Numbered from the stretch's first letter, positions 47,805 through 59,921 are shown. The stretch: DNA of 64,000 bases from Prochlorococcus sp. MIT 1307 (GCF_034092395.1 NZ_CP139301.1:1426001-1490000), one strand, 5' to 3'. Numbers and translations are program-made. Notes: a model not told the origin generated them from the letters alone.

Positions 47805-49178
47805 ATGGATTTGCCTCAAGTGTTTTCAGTGCTCAGCACGCATGAAGTCGAAGTAGCAGAAACCTTAATCGGTGTAATTAATTTCCTCTTGATCTTCTTA
47901 GCCGCAAGGACTTTGGCTGAGGTTCTAGTCAGGATTAATTTGCCAACGATTGTTGGGGAGCTTTTGGCTGGGGTGCTGATTGGAGCTTCGGGATTGCATT
48001 TGTTAATACCTCCAACTACTGGGGCGCAATTAAATGCGGGCTTTGTAAATGTGATTAGTTCGTTGGCGTCAGTTCCCCCTGAGGCTGTTCCTGATCTTTA
48101 TTTCGAAACTTTTCCTTCGCTGCAGGCAGTTGCAACTCTTGGCTTATATGCGCTGCTTTTCCTAACTGGTTTAGAGAGCGAGTTAGAAGAACTCGTTGCT
48201 GTTGGTGCGCAAGCTTTCACAGTCGCCATGGCAGGTGTGATTTTGCCTTTTGTCGCTGGAACTGTTGGCTTGATGTTTATCTTTCAGGTTGATTTGATAC
48301 CTGCGGTTTTTGCTGGTGCTTCTATGACAGCAACAAGTATTGGTATTACTGCCAGTGTTTTTGGGGAACTTGGTTATCTCAAAACTCGAGAAGGACAGAT
48401 TGTTATAGGCGCGGCAGTGCTTGATGACATTTTGGGCATCGTCATCCTTGCGGTGGTCGTTGCTTTGGCTACAGGAGGCTCACTGCAGATTGCTCCCATT
48501 GTCAAACTTGTTTTGGCGGCCACTGTATTTGTAGTTGGGGCAATAGTTCTTAGTAGAACAGCTGCACCTGCTTTTGATTGGGTACTAGAAAGACTGAAAG
48601 CTCCAGGAGCTGTCGTGGTGGCTTCGTTCGTAATTCTTGTGTTGAGTTGTTTTGTTGCAACTGCAATTGGGTTGGAAGCAGCGTTAGGAGCCTTTGCCGC
48701 TGGCTTGATCCTCAGTAGTTCTAAAAACAATCACGCCATTCAACAGTCCGTATTACCACTTGTCTCTCTTTTTGCAACTATTTTCTTTGTGCTTGTAGGC
48801 GCAGGAATGGATCTTTCAGTTATTAATCCACTTGATCCCAGCAGTCGCTCAGCATTGGTAGTAGCAGGATTTATGTTATTAGTTGCAATTGTTGGGAAGA
48901 TAGCTGCAGGTTGGTGTTTCGTTATTGACAAGCCTACTGATCGATTAGTGGTTGGTTTGGGAATGATGCCTCGTGGAGAGGTTGGTTTGATTTTTCTTGG
49001 ATTGGGAACCAGTGCAGGCCTGCTAGGTCCTTCATTAGAAGCAGCAGTTTTATTAATGGTTATAGGAACCACTTTTCTTGCACCAGTTTTGCTCCGAATT
49101 GTGCTTAAAGATAAAACCCCAGGTGGTGGTAATACCATCCCTGATGATGTAGCAGCTAACCCTGTTGGACTTGTCTAA
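47805..49178 (+). CDS. Cation/proton antiporter, CPA2 family
   Basis: A 457-residue membrane protein with about twelve hydrophobic segments, a Na+/H+ or K+/H+ exchanger. NLPTIVGELLAGVLIGASGLHLL near residue 45 and YALLFLTGLESELEELVAVG near 118 are typical of the family. The ion-binding region is IGAAVLDDILGIVIL near 203, with the paired Asp, and PRGEVGLIFLGLGTSAG near 390. The C-terminus is short, with no regulatory TrkA domain. Which cation is moved cannot be told. ATG start. It is divergent from glgP. Confidence 0.92.
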   Translation: MDLPQVFSVLSTHEVEVAETLIGVINFLLIFLAARTLAEVLVRINLPTIVGELLAGVLIGASGLHLLIPPTTGAQLNAGFVNVISSLASVPPEAVPDLYFETFPSLQAVATLGLYALLFLTGLESELEELVAVGAQAFTVAMAGVILPFVAGTVGLMFIFQVDLIPAVFAGASMTATSIGITASVFGELGYLKTREGQIVIGAAVLDDILGIVILAVVVALATGGSLQIAPIVKLVLAATVFVVGAIVLSRTAAPAFDWVLERLKAPGAVVVASFVILVLSCFVATAIGLEAALGAFAAGLILSSSKNNHAIQQSVLPLVSLFATIFFVLVGAGMDLSVINPLDPSSRSALVVAGFMLLVAIVGKIAAGWCFVIDKPTDRLVVGLGMMPRGEVGLIFLGLGTSAGLLGPSLEAAVLLMVIGTTFLAPVLLRIVLKDKTPGGGNTIPDDVAANPVGLV

Positions 49179-49190
49179 CATCTTTACTGT

Positions 49191-49211
49191 TCAATCCAGG
49201 CACAGGATTGA
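49191..49211 (+). terminator. Weak hairpin after the antiporter gene
   Basis: TCAATCC and GGATTGA pair across a 7-base loop, 13 bp after the stop codon. There is no T run, so this is a weak candidate terminator. Confidence 0.3.
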
Positions 49212-49308
49212 CTTTGGAGATAAGGATGAGCAATTAAATAATTACCGTCCGAGATGAGAGTTGGTTGCCTAACATCTCATTCTTTAGTTCAGTCAGCTCA
49301 CTCTTTCG

Positions 49309-50262
49309 ATGTCTGCTTTAGCTGGTACGCCTAATGCCCCTTGGAGCTATTTAGGTCATGACGTTTATTCGGTGAGCTGTAGCCCTGCTGATGCTCCTTT
49401 GCAGGTGGCAAGCTTTAACAAAGAGAGCCCAGCAGTCTTGCTAGTTCATGGGTTTGGGGCATCAACAGACCATTGGCGTTACAACATTCCAGTACTTGCT
49501 CGAACTTATGAGGTTCATGCCATTGATTTGCTTGGTTTTGGCAGAAGTGCAAAACCTTCAGAATTGGAATATGGGGGAGAGTTATGGAAGGAACAGGTTG
49601 TTGCATATGTAAAAGAGCGAATAGGAAGACCTACGGTGATTGTTGGTAACTCTCTTGGTGGTTATGCCGCTTTGGCTGCAGGAGCTGCATTGGAATCTGA
49701 TTCTGCTGGTGTGGTTTTATTAAATGCAGCGGGATATTTCAGTGATGAGAAGTTCCCCTCTAAGCCAAAGGATTTTGGAGCAAAGTTGCGTCAAATGGTT
49801 GGCTTGGGCCTTTCAAGGGATCTTTTGGTTAAGTGGGTTGTTTATCCTTTAATGCAACGCTTGATTTTTGAAAATTTACGTAGACCTGGTGTTATTCGGA
49901 GTACTCTCCAACAGGTTTATATAGATCCTACTAATGTTGATGATTATTTAATTGAGTCGATTCGTCGGCCTTCTTTGGATCCAGGAGCATTTCAGGTGTT
50001 TCGTAAAGTTTTTCAAGCACGTGGATTGAAGGGTAAACCGATAGATGAATTATTTAAAGATTTAAAAGCGCCTCTCCTTTTGCTTTGGGGTGATAGTGAC
50101 CCTTGGCTGAGGAATGCAAAAGCCAAACAAGATAAATTTCGGGCATTTGCTCAAAAAGCTTCTTTAGAAGTTAAAGAGGTTCTTCTAAAGGCTGGTCATT
50201 GCCCTCATGATGAGGTGCCCGATAAGGTAAATGAAGCAATGCTTACGTGGTTGAAAGGTTAG
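49309..50262 (+). CDS. Alpha/beta hydrolase
   Basis: A 317-residue alpha/beta hydrolase. It shows LLVHGFGASTDHWRYNIPVLA near residue 46, the nucleophile elbow VIVGNSLGGYAALAAG near 110, the acid loop LLWGDSDPWLRNA near 260 and the His in LLKAGHCPHDEVPDKVNEA near 293. It is a paralogue of the hydrolase at 16613-17530, with the same HGFGAxxxHWR and GHCPHDE blocks. Similar plant plastid proteins exist, so a chlorophyll-related or lipid substrate is possible but unproven. ATG start. Confidence 0.88.
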   Translation: MSALAGTPNAPWSYLGHDVYSVSCSPADAPLQVASFNKESPAVLLVHGFGASTDHWRYNIPVLARTYEVHAIDLLGFGRSAKPSELEYGGELWKEQVVAYVKERIGRPTVIVGNSLGGYAALAAGAALESDSAGVVLLNAAGYFSDEKFPSKPKDFGAKLRQMVGLGLSRDLLVKWVVYPLMQRLIFENLRRPGVIRSTLQQVYIDPTNVDDYLIESIRRPSLDPGAFQVFRKVFQARGLKGKPIDELFKDLKAPLLLLWGDSDPWLRNAKAKQDKFRAFAQKASLEVKEVLLKAGHCPHDEVPDKVNEAMLTWLKG

Positions 50263-50326: not shown

Positions 50327-51181
50327 ATGCCAATCACTTTTACTAGAAAAGAAGTGCCCTATCATCATTGGGAACTTTTGGATATTGATAGTTGTGATCG
50401 TATAAGAATAGTTCCAGAGCGAGGCGGCTTGATCACTGAATGGTTTTGTAATGGACGAGAGGTTCTTTATTTTGACTACGAGCGATTTAACCAAATCGGC
50501 CAAAGTGTTCGTGGTGGAATCCCTATTTTATTCCCTATTTGCGGAAATTTGCCTGGTAATTCTTGGAAATCAGGTAATCATGAATATAGGCTCCCACAAC
50601 ACGGTTTCTCGAGAGATCTTCCTTGGAAAATAGATTTCATGCATCATGATAAATGTTGTGTTTTAAGTTTGTGTGATAATGAAGCTTCGCGTGCAATGTA
50701 TCCATATTCTTTCCTGGTTGAAATTAAGTTTAAACTAGAGATTAATGCTATTAATTTTTTAATTAATATTGAAAATCGTAGTAAAGAAAAAATGCCTTTT
50801 TCTTTTGGTATGCACCCCTATTTTAATGTAACGGACTTGGGGAAAATAGAAGTTGATGGATTGCCCTCTAAATGTATTAATCACTTGAATATGTTAGAAG
50901 ATGATACTAAAAAACAACTGGCTGTTATTTCAGATGGGATAGATTTTATTTGTGGCCCTTCTAAACTTGTAACTGTGGTTGATTTGTTAACTCGTACCCG
51001 AGTTCATTTGCAACAACAAGAGCCCATGAATCTAACTGTTTTATGGACGGACCCACCTAGAAAAATGATTTGTTTAGAGCCTTGGACAAGCCCACGTGAG
51101 TCGTTGATTAATGGAGAACGTATACTTTTACTGGAGCCAGGAGCGATCCAAAAGTTAGATTGTAGACTTATGACTGATTAA
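50327..51181 (+). CDS. Aldose 1-epimerase family protein
   Basis: A 284-residue galactose mutarotase-like protein that would interconvert sugar anomers, perhaps of phosphorylated sugars. Motifs include RIVPERGGLITEWF near residue 27, RGGIPILFPICGN near 64, YRLPQHGFSRDLPW near 88, with the conserved His and Arg, and MPFSFGMHPYFNV near 155, with the second His. EPWTSPRESLINGERILLLEPG ends the fold. The gene is more AT-rich than upstream genes. ATG start. It begins 64 bp after the hydrolase and precedes the lactate genes on the same strand. Confidence 0.85.
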   Translation: MPITFTRKEVPYHHWELLDIDSCDRIRIVPERGGLITEWFCNGREVLYFDYERFNQIGQSVRGGIPILFPICGNLPGNSWKSGNHEYRLPQHGFSRDLPWKIDFMHHDKCCVLSLCDNEASRAMYPYSFLVEIKFKLEINAINFLINIENRSKEKMPFSFGMHPYFNVTDLGKIEVDGLPSKCINHLNMLEDDTKKQLAVISDGIDFICGPSKLVTVVDLLTRTRVHLQQQEPMNLTVLWTDPPRKMICLEPWTSPRESLINGERILLLEPGAIQKLDCRLMTD

Positions 51182-51343: not shown

Positions 51344-53044
51344 ATGAGAAATTATCGTTTGTTGGATTTCAGGCAAGAGTTAATTGCGATTGTTGGAAGT
51401 GAAAAAGTAATTACTGAGCAAAGCAAGATTCGATTTTATAGTACCGGAATTCGTGTTGGTTTTGGTGATGCTTGTGCAGTCGTTTTCCCTAAAGACTTGA
51501 TACAACTTTGGAAAATATTGGAAACAGCAATATCTTTCGACAAAATTATTCTTCTTCAGGCTGCAAATACAGGTTTGACTGGTGGTTCGACTCCAGATGG
51601 TAATAATTATGATCGTGATGTTGTTATTATTAATACTCTTCACTTGGACAAGTTATTTATTTTGAATAATGGCTCTCAAGTTATTGCGCTCCCAGGGACA
51701 ACATTATTTCAATTAGAAGAGCAATTGCTTCCTCTCGGGAGAGGACCACACTCCGTCATTGGTTCCTCGTGCATTGGGGCATCAGTTGTAGGAGGTGTAT
51801 GCAACAACTCTGGAGGAAATTTAGTTAATCGGGGCCCTGCGTATACTGAATTATCTTTATTTGCAAGATTAAATCAAAAAGGGCAATTAGAATTAGTCAA
51901 TCATCTTGATATTGAGCTAGGAGACTCACCCGAGAAGATTTTAACTAATCTCGAATCGGCAAATTTTAAGAAAAAAGGTTTACAAGATTCTGACAGAATG
52001 GCATCTGATCGTACATATCAGAAAAGAGTACGTGATTTTCATGCGATTACACCTTCTAGATTTAATGCAGACAAACGGCGCCATTATGAGGCTAGTGGCT
52101 GTGCAGGGAAAATCGCCGTTTTTGCTGTGAGGCTAGATACTTTTCCACTACCAAAAGATGAGCAAGTATTCCTTGTAGGAACGAATAACCCTAGGAGATT
52201 TACTGAGTTGAGAGAAAAGATTCTTTTAACTTTTGATCATTTACCTGATATGGGTGAATATATGCACCGTAGCTATTTCGATGGCTCAGATAAATATTGC
52301 AAGGATACATTTTTGATTATTAAATATTTTGGCACAAGGTTCCTTCCTAAACTTTTAGCTATCAAGAGGAAGTTAGATTACATAGCTGTTAAAACTCGCT
52401 TTTTACCAAAACACTTTTCTGATAAAGTTTTGCAATTTATAGCGAATATATTTCCTGACCACCTTCCTGAAAGAATAAGAGATATTCGCAGAAAATACGA
52501 ACATTACATGGTTCTTTTGACTAGTGATAAATCTATTGAACCAACTCAGAATTTATTAGATTTAGCAATATCACTTGAGGATGATTATGATTACATTAAA
52601 TGCACATCTTCGGAAGGTAAGGATCTCCTTTTGCATAGGTATGTAGCTGGAGCAGCGCCAGTTAGATATCGAATTATTAATTCTTCAAAGGTTGGAGAAT
52701 TGCTTCCTCTGGATGTTGCACTTCCAAGAAATTGTACTTCTTGGTATCAAATTCTTCCACGTGAGATTATAAGCCAAATGGCAGAATCATTCCAAATGGG
52801 TCATTTCCTGTGTATGGTTTTTCATTGGGATTTTGTGTTAAAGAAAGGAGCAAATCTAAATGATTTGAAAGAACAAATTTTAACAATTTTAGATAAAAAT
52901 AATGCAAAGTATCCTGCTGAGCATAATGTTGGTCATTTGTATAAGGCTGATGAGTGCCTAGAGAGCTTTTATAGAAGTTTGGATCCGACTAATAGCTTTA
53001 ACCCTGGGATAGGCAAAACATCGAAAAAGAAGCACTATGAGTAG
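51344..53044 (+). CDS. dld: D-lactate dehydrogenase (quinone-dependent, FAD)
   Basis: A 566-residue flavoprotein closely resembling E. coli Dld, which oxidises D-lactate to pyruvate and feeds electrons to quinone at the membrane. The FAD domain has LLQAANTGLTGGSTPDG near residue 70 and GPHSVIGSSCIGASVVGGVCNNSGG near 130. The cap and membrane-binding part carries YMHRSYFDGSDKY near 305, FPDHLPERIRDIRRKYEHYM near 380, LLHRYVAGAAPVRY near 430, and the C-terminal AEHNVGHLYKADE and NSFNPGIGKTSKKKHYE. Length matches E. coli Dld (571). ATG start. It is followed by an L-lactate-type enzyme, so both isomers are covered. Confidence 0.94.
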   Translation: MRNYRLLDFRQELIAIVGSEKVITEQSKIRFYSTGIRVGFGDACAVVFPKDLIQLWKILETAISFDKIILLQAANTGLTGGSTPDGNNYDRDVVIINTLHLDKLFILNNGSQVIALPGTTLFQLEEQLLPLGRGPHSVIGSSCIGASVVGGVCNNSGGNLVNRGPAYTELSLFARLNQKGQLELVNHLDIELGDSPEKILTNLESANFKKKGLQDSDRMASDRTYQKRVRDFHAITPSRFNADKRRHYEASGCAGKIAVFAVRLDTFPLPKDEQVFLVGTNNPRRFTELREKILLTFDHLPDMGEYMHRSYFDGSDKYCKDTFLIIKYFGTRFLPKLLAIKRKLDYIAVKTRFLPKHFSDKVLQFIANIFPDHLPERIRDIRRKYEHYMVLLTSDKSIEPTQNLLDLAISLEDDYDYIKCTSSEGKDLLLHRYVAGAAPVRYRIINSSKVGELLPLDVALPRNCTSWYQILPREIISQMAESFQMGHFLCMVFHWDFVLKKGANLNDLKEQILTILDKNNAKYPAEHNVGHLYKADECLESFYRSLDPTNSFNPGIGKTSKKKHYE

Positions 53045-53156
53045 TTCTAAGTCGATTCAAATTTTTGCTAATTTGAGATTTGATTTTTAATAATTTTTTC
53101 CTACGGAAACTGATGCTATATTTTAGAATATATAATTAATTCTTACGTTTATTAAG

Positions 53157-54335
53157 ATGGCTGGCAATGTCTCAGCACCAAAGGTTGTAAATGTCCGAGA
53201 TCTTAGGGATTTGGCGAAGAATCGTTTACCTCAGATGGTTTTCGACTATATAGATAGTGGTGCTGATAGAGAACAAACTTTATTGCAAAATTGCACAGCC
53301 TTTAACGAAATTTATTTCCGGCCTAGATGTGCAGTAGCCACTCCTTCTTGTGACTTGTCGATTAAAGTTCTTGATCAGAAATTCCAATTACCCTTCCTTT
53401 TGGCACCAGTAGGTAGTAGCAGGATGTTTTATCCAAAAGGTGAAATTGTTGCAGCACGTGAGGCAGGAATTGCTGGAACTGGTTATACCCTTTCGACTCT
53501 TTCAGGATGCAGGTTAGAAGATGTAAAGGAAGCAACAAATTTTCCTGCTTGGTACCAGTTATATCTGCTTGGTGGTAGGGATGTGGCATTAAAAACAATT
53601 CAAAGAGCTAAATCTGCAGGTTTTTCAGCAATCGTGGTGACTATTGATACTCCTGTTTCTGGATTGCGTGAACGTGATGTACGAAATGGGACAAAAGAAT
53701 TGCTCTCTATGAACCCATTTTCTATGCTTCCTTATATCTCCCAGATGTTAATAAAACCTTGTTGGCTTACTCAATGGCTTGGGGATGGGGGGTTGATGAA
53801 TTTTCCAAATGTTGAACTAGATGATGGGCCAATGGGTTATACAGAAATAGGCCCAGCTTTAGAGCAATCAGTTGTTACTTGGGATGATTTGGATTGGATT
53901 CGTGAAGCATGGGGAGGCAAAATTATTGTTAAAGGTGTGCATGTAGGTGATGATGCCAGAAAGGCTGCTGACTTAGGAGTTGATGCGATTGTTGTTTCTA
54001 ACCATGGTGCTCGACAGCTTGATAGTGTTGCGCCAACAATTAGGGTTCTACCTGAAATTGTGAAAGCTGTGAATGGTCAAATAGATGTTCTTTTAGATGG
54101 AGGTATACGTAGAGGCGGGGATGTTGTAAAGGCTTTATGTCTTGGTGCAAAGGGAGTCCTCATTGGTAGAGCGTATGCTTATGGACTTGCTGCAGGAGGG
54201 GGGCCTGGAGTAGCAAGAGCAATTGAGATAATTCGTACTGATATTTTGCGCACAATGAAGCTTTTGGGTTGTGACTCAGTTAATAAGTTAGATTCATCCT
54301 TTGTTACTTTCCCTGAAAGTTGGAAGCAATATTAA
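53157..54335 (+). CDS. lldD: FMN-dependent alpha-hydroxy-acid dehydrogenase, L-lactate type
   Basis: A 392-residue flavin enzyme oxidising an L-2-hydroxy acid. It has LLAPVGSSRMFYPKGEIVAAREAG near residue 80, the catalytic VVSNHGARQLDSV near 278 with His and Arg, and LLDGGIRRGGDVVKALCLGAKGVLIGRAY near 305. LAPV and TLSTLSG resemble LldD (LAPV, TLSTVS) rather than plant glycolate oxidase (IAPT, TLSSW), so L-lactate is the favoured substrate. A TATAAT at 53131-53136 might give it a private promoter. ATG start, 112 bp after dld. Confidence 0.88.
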   Translation: MAGNVSAPKVVNVRDLRDLAKNRLPQMVFDYIDSGADREQTLLQNCTAFNEIYFRPRCAVATPSCDLSIKVLDQKFQLPFLLAPVGSSRMFYPKGEIVAAREAGIAGTGYTLSTLSGCRLEDVKEATNFPAWYQLYLLGGRDVALKTIQRAKSAGFSAIVVTIDTPVSGLRERDVRNGTKELLSMNPFSMLPYISQMLIKPCWLTQWLGDGGLMNFPNVELDDGPMGYTEIGPALEQSVVTWDDLDWIREAWGGKIIVKGVHVGDDARKAADLGVDAIVVSNHGARQLDSVAPTIRVLPEIVKAVNGQIDVLLDGGIRRGGDVVKALCLGAKGVLIGRAYAYGLAAGGGPGVARAIEIIRTDILRTMKLLGCDSVNKLDSSFVTFPESWKQY

Positions 54336-54379
54336 ATCCAATTTAATCATAGCTTGACTCATAATTAAAGGTTTTTTGG

Positions 54380-55738
54380 ATGAAGATTGTTGTTTTTGAT
54401 GATGACCCTACAGGTTCTCAAACTGTTTATGGTTGCCCTTTACTTTTGCGTTGGGATAAATCTAGTTTAGTTCAAGCTATTAATCATCCTTCACCTTTAT
54501 TATTCCTTTTGGCAAATACTCGCTCTATGAATCCAGTTTTAGCAGAGAAAAGAATAGGTGAAATTTGTCAATCTATAAAACAAGTATTAATTGAGCAAGA
54601 AATTCTCTTGGAAAATATTTGTTTTGTTAGTCGAGGAGACTCAACTTTGCGAGGACATGGTACTCTTGAGCCAGAAGTAATTAATAGTTTACTCGGACCT
54701 TTTGATGCAACATTGCATGTGCCAGCGTTTCTAGAAGGTGGAAGGACTACTGTAAATGGTGTGCATTTTTTACATGGAAAACCGGTTCATACTACTGAGT
54801 TTGCTCGAGATAAAGCTTTTGGATATTCAACGAGTGATTTAGATTTATGGTTACAAGAGAAGAGTAGGGGAAAGATTGTTGCTCAAAATGTTGATCGACT
54901 AAATTTTGCTTCACTTGATGCAGCAATTAACTCAAAGACTGGCCTGAAGAATCTTATTGATTTCCTATTGGCCTTGTCTGGTAATAGACCTGTTGTAGTT
55001 GATGCTCAACATCCTTCACAGTTGGAAGTTTTAGGAAAGGTAGTTAGAACTTTGATTGGAAGAAAACGTTTTCTTTTTCGTTCGGCTGCAAGCTTGATTA
55101 ATGGCTTATCTAACCTGCCTGGAAAAACTCATAATGCTGAGGAGTTTGCGTCTTTAAGACTTAAAGAAAGTTCTGGAGATTTAAAGCCTGGGTTGGTGAT
55201 GGTTGGTTCTCATGTTCGCCTTGCAGATGAGCAGTTGGAACTATTACTGAAGCAAGATTGTTGTGAAGGCATTGAGTTCCCTGCAAAGCAAATCGCAAGT
55301 GTTTTTTTGGGAGACTTGGCAGACACTTTGCTTTCTGATTTCGAGACTGAGGTTTTATACAAGTTAAATCTTATTTTAGCTTCAAGAAAAACACCAGTAA
55401 TTTACACTACTCGCGGAGAAATTTATTTTTCATCAATAGAAGCCAGAATCAATTTTGGAAATTTCTTGGCAGAATTCATGGCTAGTGTAGTCAAGAAAGT
55501 AATCATTAAGTTGGGGTATGTAATTAGCAAGGGTGGTGTTACAACTCATACTTTTCTTGAGAAAGGCTTAAACTTAGCTTCAGTTGAATTGAAAGGACAA
55601 TTATTGCCAGGCTTATCTGTTGTATGTGCGACAGACTATTCATTAGCAGAGGGACTTCCAATTGTTACTTTCCCAGGTAATTTAGGTTTTAAAGATACTC
55701 TCCTGTCTGCATGGCAACTAATGGAGAATGATAGGTAA
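54380..55738 (+). CDS. Four-carbon acid sugar kinase family protein (DUF1537)
   Basis: A 452-residue protein of the DUF1537 family, kinases for D-threonate, D-erythronate, 3-oxo-tetronate and related acids. The N-terminal domain opens IVVFDDDPTGSQTVYGCPLLL and has NTRSMNP near residue 47 and FVSRGDSTLRGHGTLEPEV near 83. The nucleotide-binding C-terminal domain shows LVMVGSHVRLADEQLELL near 271, GYVISKGGVTTHTFLEKGL near 379 and LPIVTFPGNLGFKDT near 430. The usual partners of the family (PdxA2, aldolases, dehydrogenases) are absent. ATG start, 44 bp after the L-lactate-type gene. Exact substrate unknown. Confidence 0.9.
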   Translation: MKIVVFDDDPTGSQTVYGCPLLLRWDKSSLVQAINHPSPLLFLLANTRSMNPVLAEKRIGEICQSIKQVLIEQEILLENICFVSRGDSTLRGHGTLEPEVINSLLGPFDATLHVPAFLEGGRTTVNGVHFLHGKPVHTTEFARDKAFGYSTSDLDLWLQEKSRGKIVAQNVDRLNFASLDAAINSKTGLKNLIDFLLALSGNRPVVVDAQHPSQLEVLGKVVRTLIGRKRFLFRSAASLINGLSNLPGKTHNAEEFASLRLKESSGDLKPGLVMVGSHVRLADEQLELLLKQDCCEGIEFPAKQIASVFLGDLADTLLSDFETEVLYKLNLILASRKTPVIYTTRGEIYFSSIEARINFGNFLAEFMASVVKKVIIKLGYVISKGGVTTHTFLEKGLNLASVELKGQLLPGLSVVCATDYSLAEGLPIVTFPGNLGFKDTLLSAWQLMENDR

Positions 55739-55813: not shown

Positions 55814-57238
55814 TTAATACCTTTCAATCACAGAAGTTGCAAATCCACTACAGCTTAAGGGTTCTACCTTTGGCTCCATAAGACGAGCTAGATCATAAGT
55901 GACTTTTTGATCTGCAATTGATTGACTAATTCCTTTCGTAATTAGATCAGCTGCTTTTTGCCATCCTAGGAATTCCAACATCATGACTCCACTAAGCATT
56001 AATGATCCTGGGTTTATTCGATCTAATCCAGCATGTTTAGGTGCAGTTCCATGTGTTGCTTCAAATATGGCTGCCTTATCACCAATGTTGGCGCCAGGCG
56101 CCATTCCAAGTCCGCCTACAATTGCAGCTGCTGCATCAGAAATATAGTCACCATTGAGATTCAATGTTGCAAGGATTGAGTACTCTTGAGGTCTGGTTTG
56201 AATTTGTTGAAAAATACTGTCGGCAATTCGATCATCAACCATAACCATTTGTCGCCATTTTCCATTCCCATGACTTGCTCCTATGTTTTCTAAAATTGAT
56301 TTAACCTCTAAACAAATAGCATCTTTTTTCTCTTGAGTTAGTGATTCATAGCCAGGATCAATCATCTTTGCATTATTTTCAATATTGATTGAAAGGTTCT
56401 TTTCTGCATTGTCTAGTATCCAACTTTCCCGTTCTGTGATGCACTCCTTACGAAATTCATCTGTTGCTAATTCATAGCCCCAATCTCGAAAGGCACCTTC
56501 AGTAAATTTCATGATATTTCCTTTATGTACAAGAGTCACGTGACGTCGATCACCTGAAAGCTTTAGTGCATGTTGAATAGCTTTGCGAATATGTCTTTGA
56601 CTTCCAGCTTTGCTCACTGGTTTGATCCCTATACCTGAACCTTGAGGGATTTGCCTTTTGCCAAGTTTTCCGTTTGCAGGGATAACTTTAGAGTTGAGGT
56701 GATCAATTAAGTTAATTCCAGTTTCATCATTGGCTTCCCATTCGATTCCCATATAAATATCTTCTGTATTTTCTCGATAAACAATGACATCGAGATCTTG
56801 AGGGCGCTTATGAGGACTTGGCGTGCCTTTGTAATAGCGACATGGACGAACACATGAATAAAGATCAAATATTTGTCTCAGGGCAACATTTAATGAACGT
56901 ATTCCGCCACCTACTGGAGTAGTTAGTGGACCTTTAATGGCCACTCCATAAGTCTCAATTGCGGTAAGAGTATCTTGAGGAAGGTATTGATAAGTTCCGT
57001 AAAGGTCGCATGCTTCATCGCCTGCATAGACTTTGAACCATTCGATTCGTCGTTTAGTCCCATAGGCTTTATTGATTGCTGCATCAATTACCGCTTGTGT
57101 TGCAGGCCAGATATCTACACCAGTACCATCTCCCCTAATGAAAGGGATGATTGGATCATTGGGAACTTCCGGATTACCGTTAACGAAACGAATCGCTGTG
57201 CCTTGCCTGGGAGTGCTGAGTTTCTCAAACTGGGCCAT
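55814..57238 (-). CDS. icd: Isocitrate dehydrogenase (NADP)
   Basis: Icd converts isocitrate to 2-oxoglutarate, the carbon skeleton for nitrogen assimilation. The 474-residue protein has PIIPFIRGDGTGVDIWPATQ near residue 29, GGGIRSLNVALRQIFDLYSCVRP near 110, YRENTEDIYMGIEW near 152, HKGNIMKFTEGAFRDWGYELA near 238 and GATHGTAPKHAG-like EATHGTAPKHAG near 395. A cyanobacterial insertion of about 45 residues follows the NADP-binding strand. ATG start. It is divergent from ho1 across 307 bp holding a perfect NtcA-type site, and NtcA control of icd is known in other cyanobacteria. Confidence 0.96.
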   Translation of the reverse strand: MAQFEKLSTPRQGTAIRFVNGNPEVPNDPIIPFIRGDGTGVDIWPATQAVIDAAINKAYGTKRRIEWFKVYAGDEACDLYGTYQYLPQDTLTAIETYGVAIKGPLTTPVGGGIRSLNVALRQIFDLYSCVRPCRYYKGTPSPHKRPQDLDVIVYRENTEDIYMGIEWEANDETGINLIDHLNSKVIPANGKLGKRQIPQGSGIGIKPVSKAGSQRHIRKAIQHALKLSGDRRHVTLVHKGNIMKFTEGAFRDWGYELATDEFRKECITERESWILDNAEKNLSINIENNAKMIDPGYESLTQEKKDAICLEVKSILENIGASHGNGKWRQMVMVDDRIADSIFQQIQTRPQEYSILATLNLNGDYISDAAAAIVGGLGMAPGANIGDKAAIFEATHGTAPKHAGLDRINPGSLMLSGVMMLEFLGWQKAADLITKGISQSIADQKVTYDLARLMEPKVEPLSCSGFATSVIERY

Positions 57239-57545: not shown

Positions 57546-58259
57546 ATGTCTCTAGCCCTAGCGAGCCAACTTAGAGAAGGAACGAAAAAAGCTCACACAA
57601 TGGCCGAAAATACAGGCTTTGTGAGTTGCTTCCTGAAAGGTGTTGTGGATAAGTCGACTTATCGCAAATTATTAGCAGATCTTTATTTTGTTTATAGAGC
57701 GATGGAAGAGGAAATTGGCAGGCTTGCCTTAGATGGACACCCTGTTGTTAGCCGCATTTCCTACCCAGAGCTCAATCGGCGAGAATCTCTTGAGCAAGAC
57801 CTCACTTTTTATTTTGGTGCAGATTGGTTAAAAAGTTTGGAGCCAACTAGTTCCGCAAAAGCTTATGTAGAGCGAATTCGCCAAGTTGCCAAGAATTCTC
57901 CTGAATTGTTGGTTGGCCATCACTACACAAGATATATAGGCGACTTATCAGGAGGACAAATTCTGAAAAACATTGCTCAGAAAGCTATGAATCTGCCAGA
58001 GCAAGATGGATTGAGATTTTATGAGTTTGATAGTATCGATGATGAAAAGGGCTTTAAAAAACAATACAGCGCAACTTTGGACTCATTACCGATCAATCAA
58101 ACAACTGCAGACTTGATTGTTGAGGAAGCCAATCAAGCTTTTAAATGGAATATGGAGATCTTTAAAGAGTTAGAAGGTAATCTTATTGCTGCTATTGGTA
58201 AAGTCCTATTTGGCTTCCTGACTAGGAGAAAACGTAAGGGCAGCACTGAAAAGACCTGA
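57546..58259 (+). CDS. ho1: Heme oxygenase
   Basis: Heme oxygenase opens heme to biliverdin IX-alpha, the first step to bilins, using ferredoxin. The 237-residue protein has LREGTKKAHTMAENTGFVSCFLKG near residue 10, with the proximal His ligand, and VGHHYTRYIGDLSGGQILKNIAQKA near 118, the distal helix with the conserved Gly pair. The C-terminus ends in a basic run (LTRRKRKGSTEK). ATG start. It stands 137 bp upstream of pebA and pebB on the same strand, which use its product. Confidence 0.96.
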   Translation: MSLALASQLREGTKKAHTMAENTGFVSCFLKGVVDKSTYRKLLADLYFVYRAMEEEIGRLALDGHPVVSRISYPELNRRESLEQDLTFYFGADWLKSLEPTSSAKAYVERIRQVAKNSPELLVGHHYTRYIGDLSGGQILKNIAQKAMNLPEQDGLRFYEFDSIDDEKGFKKQYSATLDSLPINQTTADLIVEEANQAFKWNMEIFKELEGNLIAAIGKVLFGFLTRRKRKGSTEKT

Positions 58260-58396
58260 CATTAAAGATTTTGAGATACCTTTGAAGATGATCCCATTGG
58301 TTAGTTGAATACTACAAAATGAGCTTTTTTTTAAGAAAGATTGGAGATCCATACTTAGATCAATTTGCTTAAGATCACACTCGTTAGGTGAGGTAG

Positions 58397-59104
<708 letters not shown>

Positions 59105-59135
59105 TATGCTTCCTCAGGTGAATTAGATCAACCAT

Positions 59136-59921
59136 ATGAGTTATAAACGACTTACAAGTTTAGACCCTGTAGAACTTGAGGGATGGCGATGGGCTCCATT
59201 CCTCAATGAGATAATCCATTCTTTTTCATCTTTGCAGCCGACAATATCTCCTATTGCAGCTGACTTCCTGAACAAAGAATCCACCTTTGGATCCAAGATA
59301 AAGCCTCAAAAAGTGCAGACCCAAACCTGGGCTTGTCGAACAAATAAATTAAGACATGTACGAGCTGCTTGTGTTGAAGCATCAGGCACAGCTTCAGTGT
59401 TGAATTTTCTTGTGCATCCATTAGAGAGTTATGATCTTCCTTTTTTTGGTGCTGATTTTGTAACTCTTTCCTCTGGTCATCTATTAGCACTAGATTTGCA
59501 ACCAGTTATTAAAAGTGACAAGTTACATACACAAGCTGTTTGGAGGGATTTACTCCCTATGCATGCGCGCTGGCAATCTATATTACCGCCTGGAGGTCCT
59601 ATTCCTAAAGAGGCTGAACCTTATTTTTCACCAGGTTTTCTTTGGACAAGACTGCCTTTAGGCCTTGAAGCAGATAGAATAATTTCAGAGGTGATTATGC
59701 CTGCTTTTAAAGATTATTTTTCTCTATACTTAAATTTAGTAAATAATGCGATAGAAGTAACTAAAGGCAGGTCCTCTGATCTTTTATTAGGGCAGGAATC
59801 TTATATGAGATATCGTGCAGAGAAAGATCCTGCCAGAAGAATGTTAACTAGTTTCTTCGGCAAAGAATGGACAGAGTTTTATATACATGATGTCTTGTTT
59901 GACTTGTCAGAAGAAAAATGA
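59136..59921 (+). CDS. pebB: Phycoerythrobilin:ferredoxin oxidoreductase PebB
   Basis: PebB reduces dihydrobiliverdin at its A ring to phycoerythrobilin, the chromophore of phycoerythrin. The 261-residue protein carries [23 protein letters not shown] near residue 85, [23 protein letters not shown] near 108, [25 protein letters not shown] near 150 and [24 protein letters not shown] near 228. It is a paralogue of PebA. ATG start, 31 bp after pebA, so the two are one operon. No phycoerythrin subunit gene is nearby; they must be elsewhere in the genome. Confidence 0.95.

Follow-up and report, generated by a model that had tools for sequence, protein, structure and literature searches.

A D-lactate dehydrogenase gene and an LldD-like gene occupy a glycolate dehydrogenase locus beside a core DUF1537 kinase gene in Prochlorococcus

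Genes at the locus

We analysed a stretch of 64,000 nucleotides (the window) from Prochlorococcus sp. MIT 1307 (GCF_034092395.1 NZ_CP139301.1:1426001-1490000), part of a closed 2.03-Mb picocyanobacterial genome. An earlier note had described three same-strand genes in it as a D-lactate, L-lactate and four-carbon acid module, with an aldose epimerase just upstream. All of these open reading frames are intact, and Pfam and PRK models, together with PDB entry 1f0x, agree with the family names, except that the FMN enzyme can be called LldD-like only. The epimerase is where the note had placed it.

47805-50262, + strand: CPA2-type cation/proton antiporter and alpha/beta hydrolase, the conserved upstream frame of the locus
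50327-51181, + strand: aldose 1-epimerase-like protein, 284 aa (PF01263, E=2.3e-20)
51344-53044, + strand: dld, predicted quinone-linked peripheral-membrane FAD D-lactate dehydrogenase of the E. coli type, 566 aa (PRK11183, PF09330, 1f0x)
53157-54335, + strand: lldD-like FMN 2-hydroxyacid dehydrogenase, 392 aa (PF01070)
54380-55738, + strand: DUF1537 four-carbon acid sugar kinase-family protein, 452 aa, DDDPTGSQTV subtype (PF07005, PF17042)
55814-57238, - strand: icd, NADP isocitrate dehydrogenase (PRK07362, 962.6 bits against a cut-off of 585; synteny)

The gaps between the epimerase, dld, lldD and DUF1537 genes measure 162, 112 and 44 bp. The convergent downstream neighbour, icd, is conserved and marks the locus, and the epimerase-like gene holds the same upstream place in most loci compared across the family. 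As the earlier note had said, no permease is seen among the neighbouring genes examined. A promoter and terminator scan of the locus performed no better than on shuffled sequence. On the other side of icd (57546-59921), a heme oxygenase gene precedes a bilin reductase gene of PebA type and another related one, which indicates that phycoerythrobilin synthesis is kept in this genome.

The AT-richness of the three genes had been read as a hint of a different history. The genes are indeed AT-rich, but unspecifically so: GC3 is low all the way from the epimerase through icd (z -1.3 to -2.1), with the lowest value in the core gene DUF1537. Given that the epimerase, DUF1537 and icd share this low GC3, composition is uninformative about origin, and we dropped it as an argument for foreign descent, even though the Dld tree described below places the closest sampled outsiders in marine gammaproteobacteria.

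Identity and distribution of the two dehydrogenases

By homology, Dld falls clearly within the E. coli-type family of quinone-linked D-lactate dehydrogenases. Against the PRK11183 model for these enzymes it scores 831.6 bits, where the cut-off is 391, its membrane-binding domain covers positions 1-290 of the 290-position PF09330 profile (380.3 bits), and E. coli Dld (1f0x) aligns with it from end to end (residues 9-565, E=2.7e-201). This homology supports the earlier proposal that D-lactate would be oxidised with transfer of electrons to quinone.

The same gene has been studied in strain SS120 under a different interpretation. Both SS120 dld primers of PMC2565063 map inside the dld gene of locus L112, so the published gene is the orthologue beside lldD and DUF1537. 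With glucose, its mRNA rose about 5-fold (PMC2565063) and an SS120 "L-lactate dehydrogenase" protein rose about 9-fold (PMC10100731), and the authors interpreted this response as NAD-regenerating fermentation, in which Dld would reduce pyruvate and regenerate NAD+ during glucose use. The induction itself is compatible with such a role. However, Dld belongs to an FAD/quinone family, carries a membrane-binding domain, bears no resemblance to NAD-linked lactate dehydrogenases and is of a class that runs from lactate to pyruvate; its predicted quinone-linked type contradicts an NAD-linked fermentative function, which we consider hardly credible. Since members of the Dld family are FAD/quinone-linked and should oxidise D-lactate, lactate disposal or respiration would better fit the induction by glucose. 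Lactate dehydrogenase genes are recorded by Cyanorak in LLI-LLIII Prochlorococcus and in some CRD1 Synechococcus (cited in PMC10100731).

Across 251 Cyanobiaceae genomes, dld is present in 33, a count that leaves out one further weak match with four stops. All but one of these genomes (32/33) also carry lldD, and the two genes adjoin, judging from coordinates, in 25 of the 32; in the other seven, dld lies far off on the same closed chromosome (two genomes) or on another contig (five). Some Prochlorococcus have dld elsewhere in the genome, and divergent lone copies of 56-60% identity were seen away from lldD (L169-L172, L174, L176, L193; G078, G039, G120), some of them in Prochlorococcus single cells of very high AT content. 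The closest named relatives of Dld are from Prochlorococcus single cells AG-363-P01 and AG-363-A16. Phylogenetically, picocyanobacterial Dld proteins form one clade (support 100/98), with Synechococcus Dld branching beside, not within, Prochlorococcus Dld (90/72, weak). The closest sampled non-cyanobacterial relatives belong to Halieaceae and Chromatiales MAGs (marine gammaproteobacteria), although the outgroup search used patterns from the query and nearer donors may be missed. In one Halieaceae MAG, the gene directly upstream of dld encodes an FMN dehydrogenase.

The FMN enzyme matches the FMN_dh family well (PF01070, 411.5 bits), but it falls under the cut-offs of both LldD models, equivalog and subfamily (278 against 550 and 314.7 against 376), and we therefore name it LldD-like only. 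Among 31 orthologues, the catalytic residues Y31, Y136, K259, H283 and R286 are invariant. We compared specificity residues at No-LOX positions 82/112/212, of which the third could not be aligned and two were usable; the orthologues have V85 (I in one) and L115 there, whereas the residues are T and W in those glycolate oxidases that have been tested, and M and L in Nostoc lactate oxidase (PMC7020209). We set aside a plant-type glycolate oxidase as an identity for this enzyme, its V and L standing where the T/W/V signature has T and W, and these two residues suggest that L-lactate would be a better fit than glycolate. Aligned to soluble glycolate oxidase, the protein has an excess of about 22 residues, most of them in a single loop, and its length is near that of full mandelate dehydrogenase (6bfg); the loop suggests membrane association.

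Orthologues of lldD are found in 49 of the 251 genomes, counted at 79% identity or more, with a few dozen weak matches and one 43% homologue set aside. That distant homologue (L126, G224 C1:1585409-1586560) lies outside the DUF1537 locus; its genome carries glcF and GlcD as well. In all 48 lldD genomes with coordinates, the gene is directly upstream of DUF1537, on the same strand and within 300 bp, an adjacency far beyond chance.

A core kinase gene beside accessory dehydrogenase genes

The DUF1537 protein has both kinase domains above cut-off (PF07005, SBD_N, 150.5 bits; PF17042, NBD_C, 75.9 bits). Its gene is present in 229 of the 251 Cyanobiaceae genomes (161 of the 167 good ones) and in 228 of 244 Cyanobacteriota genomes, being near-universal in photosynthetic ones, and the DDDPTGSQ motif occurs in all the photosynthetic-class proteins examined. 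We therefore class the kinase as core and the two dehydrogenases as accessory. Across the class Cyanobacteriia (e.g. L129-L145), the DDDPTGSQTVH-subtype gene is near-universal and single-copy; one high-quality genome, G379, is without it.

These counts bear on whether the genes arrived together as one catabolic module, an acquired form of the module named in the earlier note. LldD or Dld would then act as oxidant on the 2-hydroxyl group of a four-carbon acid sugar, and the 2-oxo product would be phosphorylated by DUF1537, following the three-step threonate route of a dehydrogenase, a 2-oxo-tetronate kinase and an FBA-type aldolase. The constant adjacency of lldD and DUF1537 would fit, and the closest plasmid-borne DUF1537 relatives (Deinococcus, Rhodococcus) do lie beside class II aldolase and dehydrogenase genes. 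Against it, about 180 family genomes have DUF1537 without lldD, including minimal high-light Prochlorococcus-type genomes that lack both lldD and glcF; dld encodes a canonical D-lactate enzyme; and no aldolase or permease is linked. When presence and order were compared across genomes, as the note had suggested, the linkages held (lldD with DUF1537 in 48/48, dld with lldD in 25/32), but the distributions proved nested rather than shared (DUF1537 in 229, LldD in 49 and Dld in 33 of 251). We dropped the single three-gene module, and joint acquisition for four-carbon acid catabolism seems to us quite unlikely.

The kinase scores far under the D-threonate kinase and 3-oxo-tetronate kinase equivalog cut-offs (43.4 against 450 and 26.7 against 350). 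Neither an LtnD-type dehydrogenase nor an FBA-type aldolase (2-OtnC) of the three-step threonate pathway is found at the locus in the window, and the two were seen linked only in non-cyanobacterial relatives. In Deinococcus and Rhodococcus, relatives on plasmid records, with 26-41% identity to the cyanobacterial subtype, lie beside genes for a class II aldolase and for a dehydrogenase or racemase; in Priestia and Ligilactobacillus, their neighbours are garR and a gluconate symporter gene. These settings resemble threonate catabolism. A PDB search with a single DUF1537 sequence gave no match, and a profile search returned only DUF1537-type entries of several subtypes, with no pointer to a substrate. 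No constant partner appeared in the other cyanobacterial loci examined. In four of them (L133, L134, L139, L141) DUF1537 is directly beside minC and minD, with minE in three, a partnership we regard as probably incidental. In one filamentous-type cyanobacterium, a tartronate semialdehyde reductase gene (L131:4730-5617, TIGR01505 above cut-off), a photorespiration-type neighbour, lies beside DUF1537. Ascorbate breakdown, mentioned in the earlier note, is unlikely to be a general substrate source, because DUF1537 also occurs, as another subfamily, in non-photosynthetic gut relatives.

Alternatively, the core kinase could fill an early gap in the vitamin B6 pathway of Cyanobacteriota by making a phosphorylated four-carbon precursor for PdxA, either 2-oxo-3-hydroxy-4-phosphobutanoate or 4-phosphohydroxythreonine. 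Cyanobacteria are reported to be without Epd and PdxB/PdxR (PMC9997740), and DUF1537 has a side activity that phosphorylates 4-hydroxythreonine (PMC7954711). In gut-type non-photosynthetic Cyanobacteriota (L146, L147, L195-L213), ssb, DUF1537 and pdxA are consecutive genes on the same strand in all 21 loci examined, and PdxJ occurs in 53 of 55 DUF1537-containing genomes against 7 of 16 without DUF1537, a comparison that ignores kinship. This run and co-distribution, the near-universal single copy and the side activity lend the idea support. However, in our search the seven PdxJ-containing genomes without DUF1537 also showed no PdxB, which counts against it. The gut-type protein directly upstream of pdxA is of the ADDLTGA subtype, unlike the photosynthetic one, and no pdx linkage of DUF1537 was seen in the photosynthetic cyanobacteria examined. 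PdxB as a substitute in DUF1537-lacking lineages was discarded, being absent from all 21 genomes tested, DUF1537-lacking ones included; the alternative PdxS route occurs in only 1 of 33 genomes. A B6 role is possible, though not favoured by the data, and we hold it rather improbable. A role in four-carbon acid salvage is no less likely, and the enzyme might also be a glycerate kinase.

Exchange with glycolate dehydrogenase genes, and known systems

The earlier reading did not include a link to glycolate dehydrogenase, whose genes glcE and glcF occupy this locus in other picocyanobacteria. There the order is epimerase, glcE (leftward), DUF1537 (rightward), glcF (leftward) and icd (leftward), so that the kinase gene lies between genes for an FAD protein resembling GlcE and an Fe-S protein resembling GlcF; both were called from Pfam and from their best models, PRK11282 and PRK11274, with scores under those models' cut-offs. 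Of the 99 genomes in which glcF was located, 93 have it no more than 6 kb from DUF1537 (56 of them less than 300 bp away), always on the opposite strand. In lldD genomes, both glcE and glcF are gone from the DUF1537 locus.

The exclusion extends over the family. With glcF in 160 and lldD in 49 of the 251 genomes, no genome has both (Fisher p=4e-27, ignoring kinship), although the pattern may stem from few evolutionary events, relatives sharing history, and independent exchanges are possibly few. Six Synechococcus/Cyanobium-type genomes have a true GlcD, with scores of about 490-510 bits, whereas in eight lldD genomes tested none was found and the best match was a core paralogue (about 70-80 bits), a GlcD-like protein that remains in all genomes tested. 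The MIT 1307 genome (G000) has no true GlcD and no glcF, and there is no glcE at the locus. About 42 of the 251 genomes, among them high-light-type ones such as G017, have neither glcF nor lldD, from which it appears that glycolate oxidation is dispensable in Cyanobiaceae.

The dld-lldD pair recurs in two lineages in one gene order. In CRD1-like Synechococcus (L157, L160, L162, L192 and MAG L191), a label inferred from the clade named in PMC10100731, the genes dld and lldD, in this order, adjoin DUF1537 and are oriented the other way, and neither glcE nor glcF is found in the stretch at that locus. The occurrence of dld-lldD in one order but two orientations argues that the pair is a unit, and this pairing is the part of the proposed module that survives, the core kinase being no part of it.

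These patterns could accompany plain lactate oxidation, in which Dld and the LldD-like enzyme would recycle D- and L-lactate, whether this stems from methylglyoxal breakdown, from fermentation or from neighbours; glycolate would be irrelevant, the locus having already lost glcE and glcF. Dld is a clear D-lactate dehydrogenase by homology, the specificity positions of its partner are lactate-like, and the two enzymes occur together in many bacteria; the gene pair in the Halieaceae MAG also speaks for it. By itself, however, plain lactate oxidation leaves unexplained both the total exclusion of glcF and the arrival at the same spot in two orientations, and we give it appreciable but minority weight.

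We consider it probable that lldD, joined in a subset by dld, displaced GlcDEF in situ as 2-hydroxyacid:quinone dehydrogenases beside the core kinase. DUF1537, with the epimerase and icd, is the old, fixed part of the picocyanobacterial locus; lldD, in the subset also dld, stands at the place that glcE and glcF hold in other picocyanobacteria, with GlcD lost too, and the loss may be tied to the gain. Counting against this reading are the lactate-like specificity residues, the genomes with neither glcF nor lldD, the seven dld copies apart from lldD, the possibly small number of exchanges and the GlcD-like paralogue that all tested genomes retain. The lldD tree is too weak to date the exchange. 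Both enzymes are predicted membrane-surface flavin dehydrogenases that would pass electrons to plastoquinone, Dld converting D-lactate to pyruvate and the LldD-like enzyme oxidising L-lactate and possibly glycolate; the genes may be co-transcribed. GlcDEF-type enzymes accept both glycolate and D-lactate, so the pair could cover the lost activity. The active-site residues suggest lactate as substrate, and the displacement hints that glycolate may count. The kinase would act independently, in a core reaction whose substrate is a four-carbon acid or the corresponding 2-oxo acid.

Marine photosynthesis has glycolate among its major products, and heterotrophs such as SAR11 live on it. Should the enzymes have been swapped in this way in low-light Prochlorococcus-type cells and in some Synechococcus, what the cells keep or leak would change, and claims of lactate fermentation in SS120 would need revision. 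The locus also highlights a kinase gene found in almost every cyanobacterium, whose substrate is directly testable.

Among previously described systems, which include dld of SS120 and MIT9211, glcE/F are known from Synechococcus only, and GOX/LOX candidates from only MIT9211 and NATL2A among the strains examined (PMC9723591); that account of low-light Prochlorococcus candidates differs from ours in that the same-locus exchange beside DUF1537 is undescribed there, and none of the papers we consulted describes it. The published SS120 dld is an orthologue at the same locus, differing in having been presented as fermentative. E. coli Dld shares end-to-end homology and FAD and membrane-binding domains with the protein described here, but here the host is an oxygenic phototroph, and the gene adjoins lldD at a glycolate-dehydrogenase locus with no lactate permease seen nearby. 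The LldD-like enzyme keeps the catalytic residues of the family of E. coli LldD, (S)-mandelate dehydrogenase and glycolate oxidase; like membrane-bound mandelate dehydrogenase it has a longer loop than soluble glycolate oxidase, while it differs from E. coli LldD in scoring under both model cut-offs and from glycolate oxidases in having V and L for their T and W. Finally, the cyanobacterial kinase resembles characterised DUF1537 kinases (D-threonate, 3-oxo-tetronate and 2-oxo-tetronate kinase) in its two kinase domains and its DDxTG and GGxT motifs, but it falls far under their equivalog cut-offs, and its gene, standing apart from any linked pathway partner, is near-universal rather than sporadic.
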